Positions 40,001 through 62,838 of a stretch of 64,000 bases of DNA are shown piece by piece. The notes under the pieces are model-generated. The model saw nothing but the letters and a program-made list of their open reading frames with translations. It did not search any database and was not told the origin of the DNA. The stretch's first letter is position 1. Every line of letters starts with the position of its first letter. The position numbers and the translations under genes were made by a program. The stretch spans positions 124,001-188,000 of the forward strand of contig JBBPTG010000018.1 of NCBI GenBank assembly GCA_038093975.1. The letters run 5' to 3'. The stretch is from Chalciporus piperatus. Taxonomy: Eukaryota; Basidiomycota; Agaricomycetes; Boletales; Boletaceae.

Positions 40001-41171
40001 CTCCCAAACGTCCCTGGGAAGAAACTCAATCCCCACCCTCCACCGTCCTACCACACGTCTCCCAGCTTCATCTTAATTCGTCTACGAACGCTGGTCAAGG
40101 AAGTACACAAACGGCAGCTGAACGAAGTGCGGCTGAGAAAGATATGGAGATCATTCGAACGAAGCGCGCGCTCACGACGAGTTTGGCTGCTGCGGCTGCT
40201 GCTGCGGGTGGTTCGGGATCTGTAGCAGGAGCTGTTGGGGGTGCGATGGGGGGTGGTAAGAACAAGTATCGGAAGAGGAGTGTAAGTCATCCAGTTCGTC
40301 TTCTCCTTTTGTCCTGGAAGCCTGACTGAGTGGGTGTTTTGCCGTGTAGCGCGCGACACCGCCTGGCAAGTGTCATTCGTGTAATATTAGGGAGACGCCA
40401 GAGTGGAGGCGAGGTCCGGATGGTGCTCGGACGTTGTGTAATGCATGCGGTCTTCGTGAGTATCTGGCCACCTTGCCACTTGATATGCGATACTAAACGC
40501 CGATCTGTTTTATTCCAGACTATGCCAAGCTGGTGCGTAAACGCGACAAGGCGCTCGCTGCTGAGGGTGGGTCTGGCACGGTGATGCGGATCGATATGGA
40601 GATGCTCCGTGCTTCTGCACGAGCCGCAGAAAGCGAGAAAGCTACCCGAGCAGCTGCGGGTGCGTCTGGCCCTGGTGTTGGCTCGGCGAGTGGGCCAGGC
40701 GGGAGTGGGGAGGTTGAAAAGATGAGCGTGCATACGGGCTCGTTTCAAATCGTGTCCATGAATGTGAGCATGGACCATGAGCCCAGCTCAGCACAAGGGC
40801 AGGGGCAGGGGCAGGGGCAGGGGCAGGGGCAGGGTCAAGCACAAGGACCGGCACAGACACAACAGCAACAATCGCAACCACCCCCGAATCAGATTCCTCC
40901 CCCCCCGCCTGTCGGTGCGAGTACGCCCCACCTCCACCACCCCCATGCAGTCAGCTCTGGACAGGGTCACGTACTTGCCCCTCCTCACGCTCATCAACCA
41001 TCGGCGCACCCACCTTCCCAGGGAAACTCTCGTTATTCGCAAACTCGCGGGCATCCTGGTCCGCCACCGCCTCCGTGGGTGGGGAAGGGATACGGCCAGG
41101 AGATGCAGCATCAACAACAGTCGTTCATGCGTACGTCTCACTCTGTCTCGAGTGGGGCATCACCCCCATGA
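37023..41171 (+). CDS. GATA-type zinc-finger transcription factor, NsdD-like
   Basis: Nuclear regulator; NsdD-type factors control sexual development and sporulation in other fungi. The finger is split by introns: [19 protein letters not shown], then [10 protein letters not shown], then [13 protein letters not shown]. Spacing is C-x2-C-x18-C-x2-C, the loop size and 'HYAKLxRK' tail of NsdD rather than AreA. About 870 residues of Pro/Ser/His/Gln-rich disordered sequence precede it, ending in a Glu-Arg repeat helix (39396-39530), then [18 protein letters not shown] joined to [34 protein letters not shown], a conserved helical block. Introns at about 38102-38153, 39647-39738, 40280-40349 and 40457-40518. 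The tail has a QG minisatellite (40793-40840). ATG 37023 is the first in frame. Confidence 0.92.
39396..39530 (+). repeat. Coding repeat: long alternating Glu-Arg (ERERER) tract
   Basis: A purine-rich repeat of gag/cgn-type codons encodes more than 40 alternating Glu and Arg residues within the GATA factor. It should form a single charged alpha-helix. The matching purine strand bias runs for about 200 nt. Confidence 0.85.
40793..40840 (+). repeat. Coding minisatellite (caggg g unit, Gln-Gly repeats)
   Basis: Tandem 6-nt units (GGGCAG) encode Q-G-Q-G repeats in the C-terminal tail of the GATA factor; probably length-variable between strains. Confidence 0.8.
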
Positions 41172-43557: not shown

Positions 43558-46419
43558 TTACGCTCCTATGTGTATGAATAAAATACGCTGATCAAACGGT
43601 ATCTTGACAGTTTTCAACGTGTTGTGCAACGCGAACGATGCACGGGTATGATCCAGGCATCCCGACTCGCTCACCATATTCTCATAAAATCTCGATGTGA
43701 TCTGGTTCGTGTACGCATCGTCGACAGCCCACATAGTCCCGATTACTGACCGGAACCCAGCAAACTGCATCACAGCAGCGAGATGAATAACTTCGTCCGG
43801 ACTCTCCTCATCTCCAACAGTGGTGTGACAAGCAGAGAGATACGCAAACCGCGGGTTTTGCATGTGATAACGCATGATATCTTCGATCTTCAAAGGCCCA
43901 TCGCCGAGCGCGAAAGCGGACTCGAATGGTTTCTTACGGTCCGGGATCCCATGACAGGCCAGGTGAACGAACTCGCTCTTTTTCAGTTCCTCGGAGACTT
44001 TGCCGATTTTGGCATCATCGCCTTCGAGGTGTTTGAACGTGGTGAGCGGCGAGACGATTCTTTGTATGTTATCCAGCTCGGCAGTAACGCAAGCAAGCAC
44101 ATTCTCTCCTGGAGCCTGCGCTTGGCCTACAGCAAGGAAATGTGGCCGACTTTGCTCCAAGTCTGATGGATGTGGCTGCCGAGCACGAATGAGGGCGGTC
44201 AGAGTTGGAGTGTAGGATGATATATACAGATCGGACAGGTTTTTCGGTTTCATCTTCCCATACGATCCAGCGGCATGTAGAGGCAAGAGAGAGAATTCGG
44301 CTGTCGGACACCACCATATGCGTGATGGAGGAGGTTGTACCTCCTTGAGGACTTCGACGATCGGCGACACGACCCCCGTCCAAAGCTCTCGTAGGATCAT
44401 GACCAGTTCCCGTGTTACGTCTTTCCATCTGGCATTCGCTGTGGCAGCGGAAAGCTGCGATGATAATCGTTGAACGTCATCTTTGCTGATCGAGAGTGGA
44501 ACGTGAATGGGGTCCTGGTAGGATAACACGACCAAAGCATCACAGCCATACTGGCTAGCATTGACGATGATGACGGGTCCCCTGTCTGCCGCCTTCCGGA
44601 GATCCGACAAAAGTGGGGGTAGCAAGAAACGTGACTGGCCAGGTAATCTTCGAATCTCGGACAAGACATCCTGCAATTGCACGTTCAGATGCCATGCCCA
44701 ATCGTGCTGAGAGGTTGGCCCGGATGATTGATTGTGCCTAGGGTTTGATGTTGAATCGAGGACATGGCGAAGGAGGCTGGTCAGCCACTTGAACTTTTCC
44801 GCTAGCTCTTTGTTCGTGTCACCAGCTGCGATAACTTCGTCGATAGGGGAGCGGATGCGAGCGAGCTGGTTCCAAAAAACACCGCGACCTTGTTCGAGGA
44901 GTTCAATGGACTCTGTGAGAGCACCATGACGAAGACACGCCGAAAACGCGTCTACAGCCAGCGAGGAAGTTAGGTTCTTGAGGACTGTAAGATGCTGGGG
45001 CAACGCGGGTAATGTAGCAAGGTAACTGGCGAGTGATCCGAGTGACGTTTGATAAGCCAGGACTGTCGTGCTGTGTCCATGCTGTTCAGCTGCACGAACC
45101 CATCCTTTCGTGGCATGCACGTCGCGGAATGAGACTGTTCGTGGCATGTCAGAGAGTGTGTTGTACAGAGTGAATATCTCTTCGAGGTCAGATATCTCCC
45201 CGAACTGGCTGAAGCGGAGGGAGAGGGAACTCGCAAGCTCGTCTAATGAGCTAGGTCGAAGAGGATGTCCTTGCGGGCAAAGTCCCAATGCCTCGCGACG
45301 GAATGCAATAGTATCTTCGAGGTCGGAGACCGCGCCCAGCTGGCTAAAGCGGACGATAAGGCAACTCGCAAGGTTGTTCAAGGACATGGGACGAAGAGGA
45401 TGTCCTGTCAGGCGAAGTTGTAAGGCTTCTCGGTGGAACGTGATCGCCTCCTCAAGGTCCGAGATCTCCCCCAGTCGCTCGAACCGCTCGGAGAAGCAAT
45501 TCGCGAGGTTGTGCAGTGACTCGGATCGAAGAGGATGACCTTGAGAGCGAAGCTGCAATGCCTCGCGGTTGAACGCGATCGCTTCGTCTAGGTCGGAAAT
45601 GACCTTGAGCTGCTTGAACCGGCGAGAGAGGCAACCCGCAAGGTTGTTCAGGGAGCTTGACCGAAGATAGTGTCCTGGCGGGCAAACTTGCAATGCCTCT
45701 CGGTTGAGTGTGATCGCCTCTTCGAGGTCAGCCATCACCCCAAGTTGGTCAAACCGATGAAAAAGGCCATCCGCAACGTTTATTAGGGAAACAAGCCGGA
45801 GGAGATGGCCCTGTGGGTGAAGCTGCAATGCCTCGCGGTGGACCATGATCGCCTCTTCGAGGTCAGATATCGCCCCCAGTTGCCCAAACCGGGTGGAAAC
45901 GGAGATGGAGAGGGAGGTGAGCGACCTGTGTCTCTTGACGGGATCTTGTGGACAAAGCTTCAACGCCTCACGGTGGAATGCGATTGCCTCCTCGAGATCA
46001 GCCATCACGCCCGTCTGGTTGAACCGCGTGAAGAGACAACTCGCAATGTTGTTCAGGGACGTGTGACGAACTCGATGGCCTGGCGAATGAAGTCGCAATG
46101 CCTCACGGTGGAGTGTGATCGCCTCCTCGAGGTCAGAAATAAACCCCAGCTCGTCGAACCGGATCTCGAGGCAAAGTGCAAGGTCGTTCAATGATGCGGC
46201 TCGGAGGATATGACCCCGTGGGCAGAGAACCAATGCACTTCGTACGATAGTGATTGCATTCTGAACGCAGCTGATCCCGCCATTGGCCCAGAACATGTTA
46301 CGGAGACGCCCTGCGATGAGTAGCAACAATCCAGCTGGTACTAGGGTCGGAATGCTCCAAAGTAAGGAAGAGACGACTCCCAATGCTGAGAGCTCTTGGT
46401 AACGAGGGACCAGGTCCAT
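43558..46419 (-). CDS. TPR-CHAT protein (caspase-like CHAT peptidase domain)
   Basis: Probable cysteine peptidase of clan CD regulated by tetratricopeptide repeats. ATG 46419 begins MDLVPRYQELSALGVV, with a hydrophobic stretch (SLLWSIPTLVPAGLLLLIAG) near residues 17-37. About eight tandem TPR-like units of about 45 residues follow, each with 'DLEEAI..HREAL.L...GH....SLNNLA..L..RF'. A linker contains ELLEQGRGVFWNQLARIRSPID. The CHAT domain has RIWWCPTAEFSLLPLHAAG, SSYTPTLTALIRAR, the catalytic-His box FVHLACHGIPD and the catalytic-Cys box FAYLSACHTTVGDEESPDE, then GFRSVIGTMWAVDD and a FIHIGA end. The coding part is one open exon. A splice acceptor (CAAATCAG) touches the ATG, so an upstream coding exon is possible. 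Paralogue at 58609. Confidence 0.9.
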   Translation of the reverse strand: MDLVPRYQELSALGVVSSLLWSIPTLVPAGLLLLIAGRLRNMFWANGGISCVQNAITIVRSALVLCPRGHILRAASLNDLALCLEIRFDELGFISDLEEAITLHREALRLHSPGHRVRHTSLNNIASCLFTRFNQTGVMADLEEAIAFHREALKLCPQDPVKRHRSLTSLSISVSTRFGQLGAISDLEEAIMVHREALQLHPQGHLLRLVSLINVADGLFHRFDQLGVMADLEEAITLNREALQVCPPGHYLRSSSLNNLAGCLSRRFKQLKVISDLDEAIAFNREALQLRSQGHPLRSESLHNLANCFSERFERLGEISDLEEAITFHREALQLRLTGHPLRPMSLNNLASCLIVRFSQLGAVSDLEDTIAFRREALGLCPQGHPLRPSSLDELASSLSLRFSQFGEISDLEEIFTLYNTLSDMPRTVSFRDVHATKGWVRAAEQHGHSTTVLAYQTSLGSLASYLATLPALPQHLTVLKNLTSSLAVDAFSACLRHGALTESIELLEQGRGVFWNQLARIRSPIDEVIAAGDTNKELAEKFKWLTSLLRHVLDSTSNPRHNQSSGPTSQHDWAWHLNVQLQDVLSEIRRLPGQSRFLLPPLLSDLRKAADRGPVIIVNASQYGCDALVVLSYQDPIHVPLSISKDDVQRLSSQLSAATANARWKDVTRELVMILRELWTGVVSPIVEVLKEVQPPPSRIWWCPTAEFSLLPLHAAGSYGKMKPKNLSDLYISSYTPTLTALIRARQPHPSDLEQSRPHFLAVGQAQAPGENVLACVTAELDNIQRIVSPLTTFKHLEGDDAKIGKVSEELKKSEFVHLACHGIPDRKKPFESAFALGDGPLKIEDIMRYHMQNPRFAYLSACHTTVGDEESPDEVIHLAAVMQFAGFRSVIGTMWAVDDAYTNQITSRFYENMVSESGCLDHTRASFALHNTLKTVKIPFDQRILFIHIGA

Positions 46420-46927
46420 CTGATTTGAACAGAGCAATCAGCGGAACATGTCAAGTTCAACAAAGAGGAAGTCACGTTGAAGTTCGTAACACTGGCTCGG
46501 GTGAGTTTATTACTACGGTCTATCTGCTGCGAGCAGGTGGTAGCTACTAGGGCAGAACGTGAGGAGGATACCTGGTATTTACAGGACTGTTGCGTACAGA
46601 CTTACAGTGCTGTTTGGTGACGACTCCAGGCCGCGTACGTAATCAGCAGTGTAGCTGCATTATGCATAGCATCAGACACCAAGACTTCAAAACCCCGAGT
46701 TTAGGCACACCGCCTCAGAGAAGCGCATGCTACGAGAGGAATAGTTCAGTTTGGCAACGATGTATTTCCATCATGATAAAGATGAGTGTCTCGCAGTTCC
46801 GAACTGCCAGGGAATCAGGATACAATCGACCGGAACGAAGGATAACAAGAAGTACTGTTCAACAATGAAGAAGAAAAAATGATTCTCGATGATCGCCTCT
46901 CGCGGCTTAGAGGTTGAACCCACGCCT

Positions 46928-51025: not shown

Positions 51026-51735
51026 CGGGGAATGGTTCAAACCGACGTGGATGATCGAGCGCAGCTCATGTTATGCCGTGGCTGTGTAAGTGGGATCTTA
51101 GATAATACCCGGTGAAGTCTAGCAGTAGCCTTACCGTAAGTACCGGTCACGGTATGCACCCACCATGAGCACGAAATAGCATGTTTTTAACTTTTATGAA
51201 TGATAGTTATGATCTTCGTACACACCAAACTTTATCACGCTCTAACCAGAGTTATTCTCTGCTGAATTGAATTCAATAAATTAAGTTATAGACGAGTGTG
51301 ATCCCAATACACGCTGCTAGTAACCCCAACGAACAACTTCAACCACAGTATAACTTAATGCACATTGCAAGCCCAGTGCACACTAACTAGGAGCCAAAAG
51401 AGAACTGAGAGAGATGAGAAAGGTAGCCTAAACGAAGGAACGTATTGCACGTCTGAATTAAACAGAACGAAGAGAACTGTCACACGAAATAGGTACGGGG
51501 GAAATGGGAAAACGAGCGTGTGGAGTTGGTCATTTCCTAGTCAACCACGGACGAAAGTCGAGTCGAGTCGAGAGCCATCCATCCATCTACAAAAAAAAAG
51601 AATTGGGAGCGCCTGATTAAACACCAAGTGGCCCACTGTTCCGTCAAAAATCGTTTCAATGTCATCGCGTTTGGTTGTCGATGTGACGTTTTTAAACACG
51701 GTGGACTTCTAAGACCGATCGTCGATGTGTGCCCG

Positions 51736-52260
51736 TTAAAAGGCAATAAGAGAATCGACGATACCTTTGATATAATCAGGAGGACCGCTGGGGTTGCCAC
51801 TTGAGCGTCCCTGGATATTCTGCATTACAAGTCAATGTTATGGTCAACATGGCGATCAGATAGAGCATACATCGGGAGGACCCTGTGGAGGGTTACCACT
51901 TGACCTTTCCTGGATATTCTACGGCACAGTCAATCTCATGGCCAACATAGCATCAAACGATGCCTACATCAGGAGGACCGTGTGGGCTACCACTTGACCG
52001 TCCATGGATATTCTGCGATACAGTCAAGTTAATCTCATGGCCAGCGTGGCCAATCAGATGAAGCCTACATCAGGAGGGCCTTGTGGGGGGTATCCGCTAG
52101 ACCTCAGTGCGAAGACCTGTTCATGTAATCAGATTTTTCCATCTGGGGGAGAAAACGGACGAATCAGGAAACTTACATCACGTCTCGACTCGGGTACAGG
52201 CGCCGCAAAGACGCTGGAAGCAACTGAGAGTAAGACAAAGAACGCAACTGAGAGACGCAT
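51736..52260 (-). CDS. Small secreted repeat protein; one R-S-S-G...G-P-P-D peptide per mini-exon
   Basis: Function unknown. Five exons, all joined in phase 0: 52260-52177, 52116-52069, 52012-51968, 51918-51871 and 51819-51736, giving 102 residues. Exon 1 encodes a signal peptide and short pro-part, MRLSVAFFVLLSVASSVFAA then PVPESRRD, with a dibasic RR. Exons 2-5 encode VFALRSSGYPPQGPPD, NIHGRSSGSPHGPPD, NIQERSSGNPPQGPPD and NIQGRSSGNPSGPPD; exon 5 adds the tail YIKGIVDSLIAF and TAA. Introns are 60, 56, 49 and 51 nt, with GTAAGT/GTAGGC/GTAGGC/GTATGC donors and AG acceptors. The exon-intron unit (about 95 bp) is tandemly repeated at DNA level, so exon duplication made the protein. It could be a processed peptide precursor or a secreted effector-like protein. 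Confidence 0.82.
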
Positions 52261-58608: not shown

Positions 58609-61600
58609 CTAGGCCCCGATATGAATGAACACAATCCTCTGATCAAACGACACAGCACCCTGATCCACCGTCTTCGCCGCCCTATTCAGCGCCCTGGCCG
58701 CATTCATACAATCCACCTCCTCCGAGCCGTTCCCTCCAAACATATTCTTATAAAACTCCCTCACCATCCTCTGCGCCATCTCGTCGTCCACAGCCCACAT
58801 CGTTCCAATCACGCTCCTAAACCCCGAGAACTGCATCCCCGCCGCCAGATGAATGATTTCGTCCGGCGTCTGACTGTCCCCCACCGCCGTATGACACGCA
58901 GATAGGAATGCGAATTCGGGATGGGCAAGGTCTGCGCGGACGATGTCCGAGAGCGTCAATGGACGATCTCCCAAAGCGAACGAAGAATCGAATGGTTGGG
59001 AGAGGTCTTGATAGCCGTGACAAGCGAAATGGACCCAGGAATGAGTACGGAGAGCGTCAAGCGCTGCGGAGGCTGTGCTGGTGGGTCCCGAGAGATGGTC
59101 GAATGGTATGGAGGGGGGAAGGAGAGAGCCGACGAGGGCGAGTTCGGAGTCCACGGCTTTGAGTTCGGGTTCGAAGGTTGATTCGGAGGGTTTGGATTGG
59201 CCGATGGCGATGAGAGCAGGTGGTGGCTTGGTGGACTTTTCACTCCGAGAACGGTTAAGTGCGGTGAGGGTGGGTGTATAGGAAGAGATATAAATGTTGG
59301 CAAGGTTATGGGCACCTTTGCGATACGGACCCGCTGCGTGGAGTGGGAGGGACGTCAGCTTTGACGTTGGACACCACCAGATGCGCGAGCCTCGGGGAAG
59401 GAATTTGGAGAGTTCGTCGACGATGGGACTGACGACGATGTCCCAGAGGTTCCTCAGAATAGGTATGATCTGTCTCTCTCGTAATTTCTCCTCGCCCACA
59501 CGGGATGTGGATTTCAACGACTGATAGAAATCGGTGGACATGGCTGTGATGTCCTCGATCGTGGCATTTGGAAGGGGAACGAGACGAGGTGCTTCGTCGT
59601 GGAGGATGATAACGGCGTCACAGCGTTTGCGGCTGATGTTGACGAGGATCACAGGTCCTTTTGCAGCTGCAGTTTGCAAGGTCTGGAAGGACATACGTCG
59701 CAGAAACGATTGGAAACCCTCCTTGGCCTGGATCCGCGTGATGACCGCATCCAAGTTACTGGTCAGTTGTCGGTACCGTCGAGCGGCCTCTTCAGTCAAT
59801 AGACGCGTCCATATAACGCTTGTCTCCCGCTGCGGGACAGCGTTGCTAGCGAGTTCCGAACTAACTCGTTCAAACTCGTCCGCCAATTTTTTTCCTTCTT
59901 CATCCGCTGAACGAAGGGAATCAATAGGGGTACGAACGCGTGACAGCTGAGACCACAACAGCCCGCGACCTTGCTCCGAGAGTTCGACGGCAAGTTCTAC
60001 ATGACCCTGATCGAGTGCGCAGGAGGTAGCATCGGTTGCAAGAGAACCTGCGTGGTTCAATGACAACAGATGATCAAGGAGGATGGCACGTCGGCTTTTG
60101 ACAGACGCTGTGGTAAGTAGGAGATGGCCAAGAGAGTTGAGCGATGTTTGGTAGGCTCTCAATGCAACCAGTGGGTGATCATTGTTCTCCGCCAAGGCGA
60201 CCCATTCCAAGCCGGCGGCGACACACCCATAACTGGAACTGTGGTTATAGCGAGCGGCTTTTTCGTAGGCTGCGAAGGCATCTTGCAGGTATGCTGGGTC
60301 TCTTGGACTTGATTTTTCGTACATTTTCACGAGCATTGACGCTAAGTGTCGCTGGGAGTGGTGCATGAGATGATGGTGATAGGCTGGGACCTTCCCTATG
60401 GCTTCTCGCAGAATATTCATCGCCCCGGGAAGCAGTTGATCTTCATTAAGGAGTGAGGAGCCTCTATAGTAAGCATCAGCAAGTGCCATGAGAGTCAATG
60501 GCTGATCGGGGTGCGACGATGGGAGATGGGAGATGGACTCCTTGAAGAGGGCGATTGCGGAATTGATATGATAGAGGGCCTCTCGATGTTCTGCTAAATC
60601 GACCAAAGCACGGCCATAGTTTCGGCATAACGCCGCCCGGGAAAGATGCTTAGGCGGCATTTGCTGCGAGGCAACTTCGAACAGCTTGATGCTTCGTTCC
60701 AAGTCGCCAAGATCGTTGTCCAGCCTGGAACGGGTATTGAGCATAGCGGCGAGGTCGGATTGGACAATAAAGTCTTCGGAGGAAGCAGACAGCGTCAGCG
60801 CATGAGAGACGCTGTCAATCGCCCGATCAAGGTCATTCCTGTTCTGTTGCACCTGGAATCGACTGAAGAGGAAGGCGCCCAAGTTGACCAGGCATGGCTT
60901 GTAACGTGAGTTCCCTGGGGTAGACGCAAGAGCGCCTTCTGCGTAAGACAAGAGCACGATCGCCTCATCAAGCGCATCGACAGCATGATTGAAATACTCG
61001 AAGTGCGCACCCAGAGCGCTCCCGAGATTTATACGCAGCTGCACGAAAGTGAAACTGCCCCGTTTGCAGGCCCGGTCAGCAACGTAAAAGAGCGCAATGG
61101 ATTCCTTCAGATCTTCCAATTGTGCAGTGAGTTTGAAGCGAGTTTCGAGGGCCATGGCTAAATTGATGTGGGCAGGGACGTGCTCCGTATGCTCTTCGGA
61201 TAGCAAAGGCATGACCTCACGGAACGAATCCACGGCGATATCTATATCCTTCTTCTCCCGTCCGTACTCGAACCTCTCGATGAAGGCTCTCGCGCGGTTA
61301 GCCTTCAAAGTGATGAGCTCTGACGCCGATAATGATTGTGGGGTGGCGAGTGCATGGTCACAGAAATCTATGATGTTTTGGAATTCATCGACATCTCCAG
61401 ATATCCGAAGGGAGGTTATCATAGTAGAGGTGAGGTTCGCAACGGTTGCTCGGTATGTCGAGGATATCGGGGATGCTAAGGTCAACGCTTCTCTGCAGAC
61501 GGAGGCTGCGAGACTGAGATCTTTGTCATCTCCTCTCTCATCGAACCGTGCGGAAAGAGCACGGCCATAGGACCCGAGCACGGTGTGACGCTGCTGGTGA

Positions 61601-62838
61601 CCAGGGGGGCATGATTGGACCGCGAAGCCAAGATTTTCAATGGCCGCGTCTAGATCAGCAATATTGCCGACTGCATTGAAGCGAGCGAAGAGACCTGTGC
61701 CGAGATGGAGAAGGGTGACGTGTCGACCCGAGAATGTCGAGGGTTGAATGTTAAGAGATGTGGTCAGATATTCAATGGCTTGGTTAAGGTCATCTGTGTT
61801 TCCGGATTTGGTGTGACGAGCAAGAAGGGCTGCACCATAATTGTCGAGGATGCGGACACGGTCCATGTTAGCCACAGTGGACTGCGCTAGGGCTGTTGAA
61901 TAACAACCAATAGCCATGTCCAGCATCTGGTCGTCGCCTCCATTCATGAAAGCATACCAGAATGTGGCACCAAGGCTCGAGAGATACAACAGATAGCCCT
62001 CCTGACCTGGAGAGCACAGCTGCAACGCAGACGAGTAATGGCGCGATGCGCTCTCCAGGGCTTGAGTGTCGCTGTCAGATTCGAACTTGACGAGCATGGC
62101 ATCTCCCAGATTACCCAAGATGGTGCATCTTAAAGGATGTCCGGGAGGGCGGAGATCAAGACAATCCTGGTAACGCTCTAAAGCCATGTCTAGATCTGCC
62201 CTATCTCCCTGTCGTTGGTACCGTTCCTTCAGCGCATTTGCATAGTTATTAAGCAGCGAGTCGCGGTTGCGATTGTCAGAGCTCGCTGATAGAGCAGCGG
62301 AACAGGTTTGAACGACGCGATCCAGGGCTGGTGTATCTCCATAGCTCCGATAACGGCCGAGAAGACCGCTAGCAAGGTTTCCTACGAACCCGAGGTAAAA
62401 CGGGTGTTCTGGAGTGCTCGAGTCAACTGTGGCCTGGAAGCATTCGATGGCCTCTGTTAGGTCTTTGGCGTCCCCTCGAAGCCCAAAACGCGTGCGAAGC
62501 GCCATTCCCACATTGCTCAGTGCTGCAAGATGGCCAGGATCTCCAGGTTTTGTTAGATCGAGGAGTTCCCTCGAACGCGTGAGCCCTTCATCTAGGTCGC
62601 TCAGGTTTCCTGACGTTCGGAAACGGGTCATAAGCTTGTTCGCGAAGTCGCTGAGGGCATTGAAATATCCATCGGAGTCACCAGGATTTAGCGACTGCAA
62701 GGTTTGTCTGGCGATTTCGACATGATCGCGAACCTGAGCAACGGATTGAAGCGGCTGACTAGATTCCGCGTTAGCCTAAGGATCAGCCATCCAACCAGTA
62801 AGTATCGCATGGACGACGTACTTCGTTATTTCTACCAT
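58609..62838 (-). CDS. TPR-CHAT protein, second copy, about 1390 residues
   Basis: Same architecture as the gene at 43558 but with about 20 more degenerate TPR units (unit pattern 'GDxxDLDxAIExxxxAL.L.....R...L.NLG.AL..RF'). A junction region has ELSEQGRGLLWSQLSRVRTP. CHAT domain: SRIWWCPTSKLTSLPLHAAG, ISSYTPTLTALNRSRSEKST, catalytic His in WVHFACHGYQDLSQPFDSSF, catalytic Cys in FAFLSACHTAVGDSQTPDEI, then GFRSVIGTMWAVDDE and a terminal FIHIGA. The main exon is open from a TAG at about 62775 with no usable ATG. A short intron (donor ATG/GTAGAA at 62835, acceptor CCTTAG) would give MANAESSQPLQSVAQVRD; this start is a guess. Stop TAG at 58609. Confidence 0.88.

Follow-up and report, generated by a model that had tools for sequence, protein, structure and literature searches.

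The minus strand of the Chalciporus piperatus DNA analysed here (a window of 64,000 nucleotides, whose numbering is used throughout) carries at 52260-51736 a gene for a secreted precursor-like protein of 102 amino acids, in which every copy of a short repeated unit occupies a mini-exon of its own. That such a repeat-exon gene is real is confirmed; its five-exon reading is well supported, and its expression is presumed. Together with five homologues, the protein appears to define a well-supported sequence family that is so far confined to Boletales. We propose, giving the model an even chance, that these proteins are secreted, disordered precursors that are trimmed at KR/RR-D and perhaps cut a second time at I/V-x-x-R to yield peptides of 15-16 residues, with mini-exon duplication setting the copy number.

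In gene order the exons measure 84, 48, 45, 48 and 84 nt and are separated by introns of 60, 56, 49 and 51 nt, all four of which are GT...AG and in phase 0, for a coding sequence of 309 nt including the stop codon. Exon 1 (52260-52177, translated as MRLSVAFFVLLSVASSVFAAPVPESRRD) is conserved in the five relatives and comprises a signal peptide, assigned by eye to about residues 1-20, and a short pro-segment with RRD at its end; the codons of the sole dibasic site, RR at residues 26-27 (KR in the relatives), lie at 52180..52185. Intron 1 (52117..52176) is followed by exon 2 (52069..52116; unit 1, VFALRSSGYPPQGPPD), intron 2 (52013..52068), exon 3 (51968..52012; unit 2, NIHGRSSGSPHGPPD), intron 3 (51919..51967), exon 4 (51871..51918; unit 3, NIQERSSGNPPQGPPD) and intron 4 (51820..51870). 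Exon 5 (51819-51736) encodes unit 4, NIQGRSSGNPSGPPD, and then YIKGIVDSLIAF and the stop codon, its full translation being NIQGRSSGNPSGPPDYIKGIVDSLIAF; a putative alternative intron 5 of 56 nt in phase 1 (51709..51764, minus strand), proposed from the sequence alone, would change the C-terminus to DYIKEVHRV. The first-pass annotation had described a signal-peptide exon followed by four repeat exons of 45-84 nt, four phase-0 introns of 49-60 nt and a dibasic RR ahead of the first repeat, and on all of these points, as well as on the RSSG...GPPD unit itself, it was correct, though it named no strand; the N-I-x-x that it placed at the start of each unit does not hold for unit 1, which has VFAL. 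Retention of any of the four introns brings an in-frame TGA into the message. Translation through a retained intron 1 gives RRD-VSFLIRPFSPPDGKI before stopping, which resembles a one-unit protein, and a PPD ahead of the first stop occurs in a fraction of 0.0008 of shuffled introns, in a test that was picked post hoc.

Exon and intron together constitute a tandem DNA unit, as originally claimed. TRF reports an array at 51775..52087 with a period of 99, 3.2 copies and 76% matches, and the starts of successive repeat exons are spaced 104, 94 and 99 nt, so that the period of about 95 bp first given was roughly right. None of 200 shuffles reached the score of any of the six repeat-exon pairs, and none of 500 did so for any pairing of introns 2-4 (three pairs), while intron 1 is related more weakly to introns 2, 3 and 4 (0, 30 and 9 of 500 shuffles reaching the score, respectively). 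Units 2-4 share 39-40 identical bases of 44-45 aligned, and unit 1 agrees with these three at 31-33 of 43-46; the simplest history would be one in which an intron and a terminal-type unit were duplicated twice beside an older first unit. Selection on the protein sequence of the units is also modestly indicated: pS exceeds pN in each of the six (non-independent) unit pairs (pS 0.28-0.83, pN 0.12-0.35), and variable columns amount to 7/15 at the first, 5/15 at the second and 11/15 at the third codon position (Fisher p 0.036; p 0.014-0.15 when single unit pairs are taken). These observations bear on the view that the gene is decaying or untranscribed, its exon pattern a relic and the reading unexpressed. 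A C-terminus unlike that of all five relatives is compatible with such decay, but the exons are all open and in frame, the introns keep GT...AG, pS exceeds pN and homologues have been predicted independently in five species, and we regard a relic as very improbable.

The homologues emerged from three rounds of searching. The spliced protein, compared with a database 5.8 billion in size, gave two matches (E 8.3e-17 and 2.2e-14); a second search with an alignment of those matches added three more relatives, and a third, with six sequences and 1604 candidates, returned the same five. All are hypothetical proteins, from Gyrodon lividus, Hydnomerulius pinastri, Melanogaster broomeanus, Paxillus involutus and P. 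rubicundulus (four of these species belong to the Boletales by taxonomy look-up, and P. rubicundulus was placed with its genus), and their identity to the 102-residue protein is 47-56%. At residues 26-28 the five have KRD in place of the RRD of the Chalciporus protein, and their signal peptides are similar to its own; taken as a definition of the family, a signal peptide, [K/R]RD at 26-28 and [I/V/F]xxR units are found in all six proteins. The last unit continues into YI in every one of them, and in Melanogaster broomeanus the units end in PPR and APD instead of PPD. The gene reading and the five homologues support the first-pass description of a secreted precursor-like protein with one unit per exon. 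The expectation that copy number would vary was likewise borne out between species, with four units here versus 2, 2, 2, 1 and 1 in the relatives, as counted in deposited gene models that may have missed mini-exons. Pfam gave no match to any of the six proteins at E values up to 1, the locus tags of the five relatives were not found in open-licence papers, and none of the open-licence papers listed appears, judged mostly by titles and the beginnings of abstracts, to describe the family. The earlier statement that no such family had been described stands for names and for Pfam, and gives way where homologues are concerned, since these exist in five Boletales.

The arginines suggest how the protein might be processed. 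Each of the six proteins has one dibasic site, at residues 26-27, and none between units. After that site, 16 of the 18 arginines across the six proteins stand in [I/V/F]-x-x-R, with Ile at P4 in ten cases, Val in five and Phe in one (unit 1 of the Chalciporus protein); both exceptions, R44 and R73, occur in Melanogaster. Of the 16, one falls outside any unit, in the tail of the Hydnomerulius protein. Variation is lowest at P4 (1.20 bits, versus 2.15 at P5, 2.18 at P3 and 2.48 at P2). According to an excerpt of PMC8528282, the extended Kex2 motif has Arg at P1 and Leu or another aliphatic residue at P4, tolerates variable P2 residues including Glu, and disfavours Asp at P3. An aliphatic P4 with Arg at P1 is present here at 15 of the 18 arginines (Ile or Val), with Phe at one more; P3 is never Asp and P2 is Glu at 5 of the 16 motif sites, the remaining 11 having a P2 outside the better residues listed (Gly 4, Gln 3, and Ser, Asp, Val and Leu once each). 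The sites thus resemble the extended motif, which every unit approaches, although motif-sharing among the units is non-independent evidence because the units are homologous, and the conserved Arg may serve a role other than cleavage. In excerpted text, PMC9769878 describes three Coprinopsis KEPs whose products, on expression in yeast, were apparently cut after a single Arg. The doubt first voiced about Kex2 cutting between units was fair with respect to dibasic sites, of which there is one per protein, and loses force against the extended motif; judged on sequence, internal cutting at single arginines appears about evenly balanced.

Cuts at the motif arginines of this gene would give DVFALR, SSGYPPQGPPDNIHGR, SSGSPHGPPDNIQER, SSGNPPQGPPDNIQGR and SSGNPSGPPDYIKGIVDSLIAF, and in the relatives the predicted inner pieces have 15-18 residues. 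Downstream of the last YI, an Arg occupies the cut position in three proteins (YIKGR, YIAGR and YIEDR, with 25, 22 and 8 residues beyond) and is absent from the other three (YIQGA, YIKEE and YIKGI, with 3, 3 and 7 residues beyond). This order would fit retention of the cut where more sequence lies beyond it, a borderline link, with no gap between 8 and 7 and with the C-terminus of the Chalciporus protein itself uncertain. A kexin-type P-domain gene was located at one place in the genome, as two pieces 44 bases apart (a profile search, whose count is a lower bound).

In the sequence of events that we propose, the signal peptide would be removed in the ER and Kex2 would cut after KR/RR, leaving a product whose first residue is Asp28. 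Further cuts, made by Kex2 or by a different secretory protease specific for Arg, would fall directly after each unit's single Arg, with its aliphatic (once Phe) P4, so that the internal products would be linear peptides of 15-16 residues, SSG...GPPDNI-x-x-R, from which a Kex1-type carboxypeptidase might trim the terminal Arg. More mini-exons would mean more peptide per transcript, and the released peptides might act extracellularly, on other hyphae or on other organisms. Both Paxillus models have only 24-25 residues from Asp28 on, with one unit, and a single unit can therefore be nearly the whole product.

The same proteins could instead be secreted, lose the pro-segment at KR/RR-D and then remain intact, as hydrophilic, disordered polypeptides that are extracellular or wall-associated and whose unit number affects only their length. 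The one dibasic site in all six proteins would agree with this, as would the wide range of lengths from Asp28 to the end (24-75 residues) and a low-confidence structural model of the Gyrodon protein (five-sequence alignment, mean pLDDT 59, pTM 0.21) in which the units are unstructured and a helix is placed in the tail at residues 66-83. A pure spacer would not, however, need to hold P4 and Arg while the neighbouring residues vary, and we consider an intact polypeptide doubtful. A host-directed role is less probable still. Small secreted effectors of plant-associated Boletales, acting in the manner of SP7 or MiSSP proteins and with binding tuned by the repeat number, would suit P. involutus and P. 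rubicundulus, which are given as ectomycorrhizal in the excerpt of PMC4649063, and repeat-containing secreted effectors are known from mycorrhizal fungi (PMC11333574, in part). Yet H. pinastri, given as brown rot in the same excerpt of PMC4649063, retains the gene with two units, and open-licence papers yielded neither a mention of the relatives' locus tags nor reports of expression in symbiosis; we think an effector of this kind unlikely. By description, the SP7-like effectors share with this family a signal peptide, hydrophilic imperfect repeats and an intron that is conserved ahead of the repeats, and differ in being reported, in the excerpt of PMC11333574, from Glomeromycotina only; a conserved island closing each repeat is a further mark of that group, and SP7 itself has five transcript versions (PMC4617103, in part).

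The precursor model has its closest counterparts among secreted repeat precursors such as the KEPs, including Rep1 and Rsp1 of U. maydis, which likewise combine a signal peptide with short repeated units and predicted Kex2 action; some KEPs show the apparent single-Arg cutting described in the excerpt of PMC9769878, much like the reading proposed here. The repeats of Rsp1 are hydrophilic and 18 or 21 residues long (excerpt of PMC4617103). Against the precursor model counts that knock-outs of KEP genes in Coprinopsis had no detectable phenotype (PMC9769878). The signal peptide (by eye) and the internal repeats of a KEP are both present in this family, but the published dibasic criteria leave it outside because each protein has only one dibasic site. 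As far as the excerpts go, one screen cut at KR/RR and then KK and required at least four fragments (PMC6339444), and another kept only proteins having two or more KR, RR, KK or RK sites, its second method choosing repeat proteins by eye (PMC9769878). By definition, then, the protein is no KEP, though it may well work like one. Extended-motif Kex2 substrates (PMC8528282, in part), for which an expanded LxxR motif served as the search pattern, have in common with it a pro-segment ending in a canonical KR/RR; there, a pro-domain is cut off one mature protein, whereas in this family every unit repeats the motif, with Ile or Val rather than Leu. In exon layout the gene recalls the micro-exon genes of schistosomes, which encode secreted proteins from short exons that are mostly multiples of three (excerpt of PMC10526429). 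The likeness ends there: those worm genes have 10-20 very short exons and introns of 100 to almost 5000 bp, against five exons and introns of 49-60 nt in this fungus. The repeat proteins in the excerpt of PMC8786786 have one or two introns and not one exon per repeat.

What is known already is thus the kind, namely secreted repeat precursors and Kex2 pro-segments, with micro-exon genes as a precedent for the layout only; what seems new is the family, the absence of dibasic sites from between its units and the allotment of one unit to each mini-exon. Tentatively, and as a possibility rather than a probability, these features could mark a precursor class that dibasic screens do not see, with release at single-Arg I/V-x-x-R sites, one unit per phase-0 mini-exon and dose set by exon duplication (one to four units in Boletales), which exon skipping could tune. 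If this were true, catalogues of fungal repeat precursors would be incomplete, because single-Arg-site precursors fall outside dibasic criteria and genes with tiny exons are easily missed by gene callers. As a compact test case within one order, the family would also allow genera to be compared in unit number, exon number and splicing, and the model makes a plain chemical prediction, that of named peptides within reach of mass spectrometry.

The first-pass annotation had further drawn an analogy with dikaritin-type RiPP precursors, whose units would be cyclised by UstYa-type oxidases, and this gained no support. The protein is indeed a repeat precursor with a signal peptide, and UstYa genes are present in the genome, where an exon-by-exon profile scan gave at least five matches, on contigs C42, C78 and C71. 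However, none of these five best candidates is listed on the contig of the repeat-exon gene (C18), where an adjoining UstYa-type gene would be expected of a dikaritin precursor, and dibasic sites between the units are lacking. A Pfam scan of the window, covering 38 ORFs of at least 150 amino acids with little overlap and limited by introns and by that size cut, found among them no UstYa and no protease. We attach next to no credence to a dikaritin origin. On C78 (37.9 and 43.5 kb) and C71 (83.2 and 84.4 kb) the UstYa matches are paired on opposite strands, possibly marking RiPP or related clusters elsewhere in the genome.

Searching the species' own genome with the DNA of the locus, its protein and two of the relatives (P0001 and P0005) returned, among the best candidates, this locus only; a further, weak hit on contig C1 (E 0.1, 33% identity) was set aside as a product of Ser/Gly/Pro composition. 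Rfam at gathering scores and ARAGORN gave no match in the window. Among its ORFs, Pfam named a MINDY deubiquitinase (49.5-50.7 kb), a forkhead gene (17.4-19.1 kb), an amidase piece and a DUF4604 protein, with F-box-like, LRR_6 and His_Phos_2 matches below the cut-off. The repeat-exon gene is flanked on either side by one minus-strand ORF that combines TPR repeats with a CHAT domain at the C-terminus, of 959 (43561-46437) and 1388 (58612-62775) amino acids. TRF also reported a 135-base tandem repeat of 2.5 copies at 45553-45891, within the 959-residue TPR/CHAT ORF, and 6.3 mismatch-free copies of GGGCAG at 40797-40834, which encode a GQ run in a low-complexity ORF.
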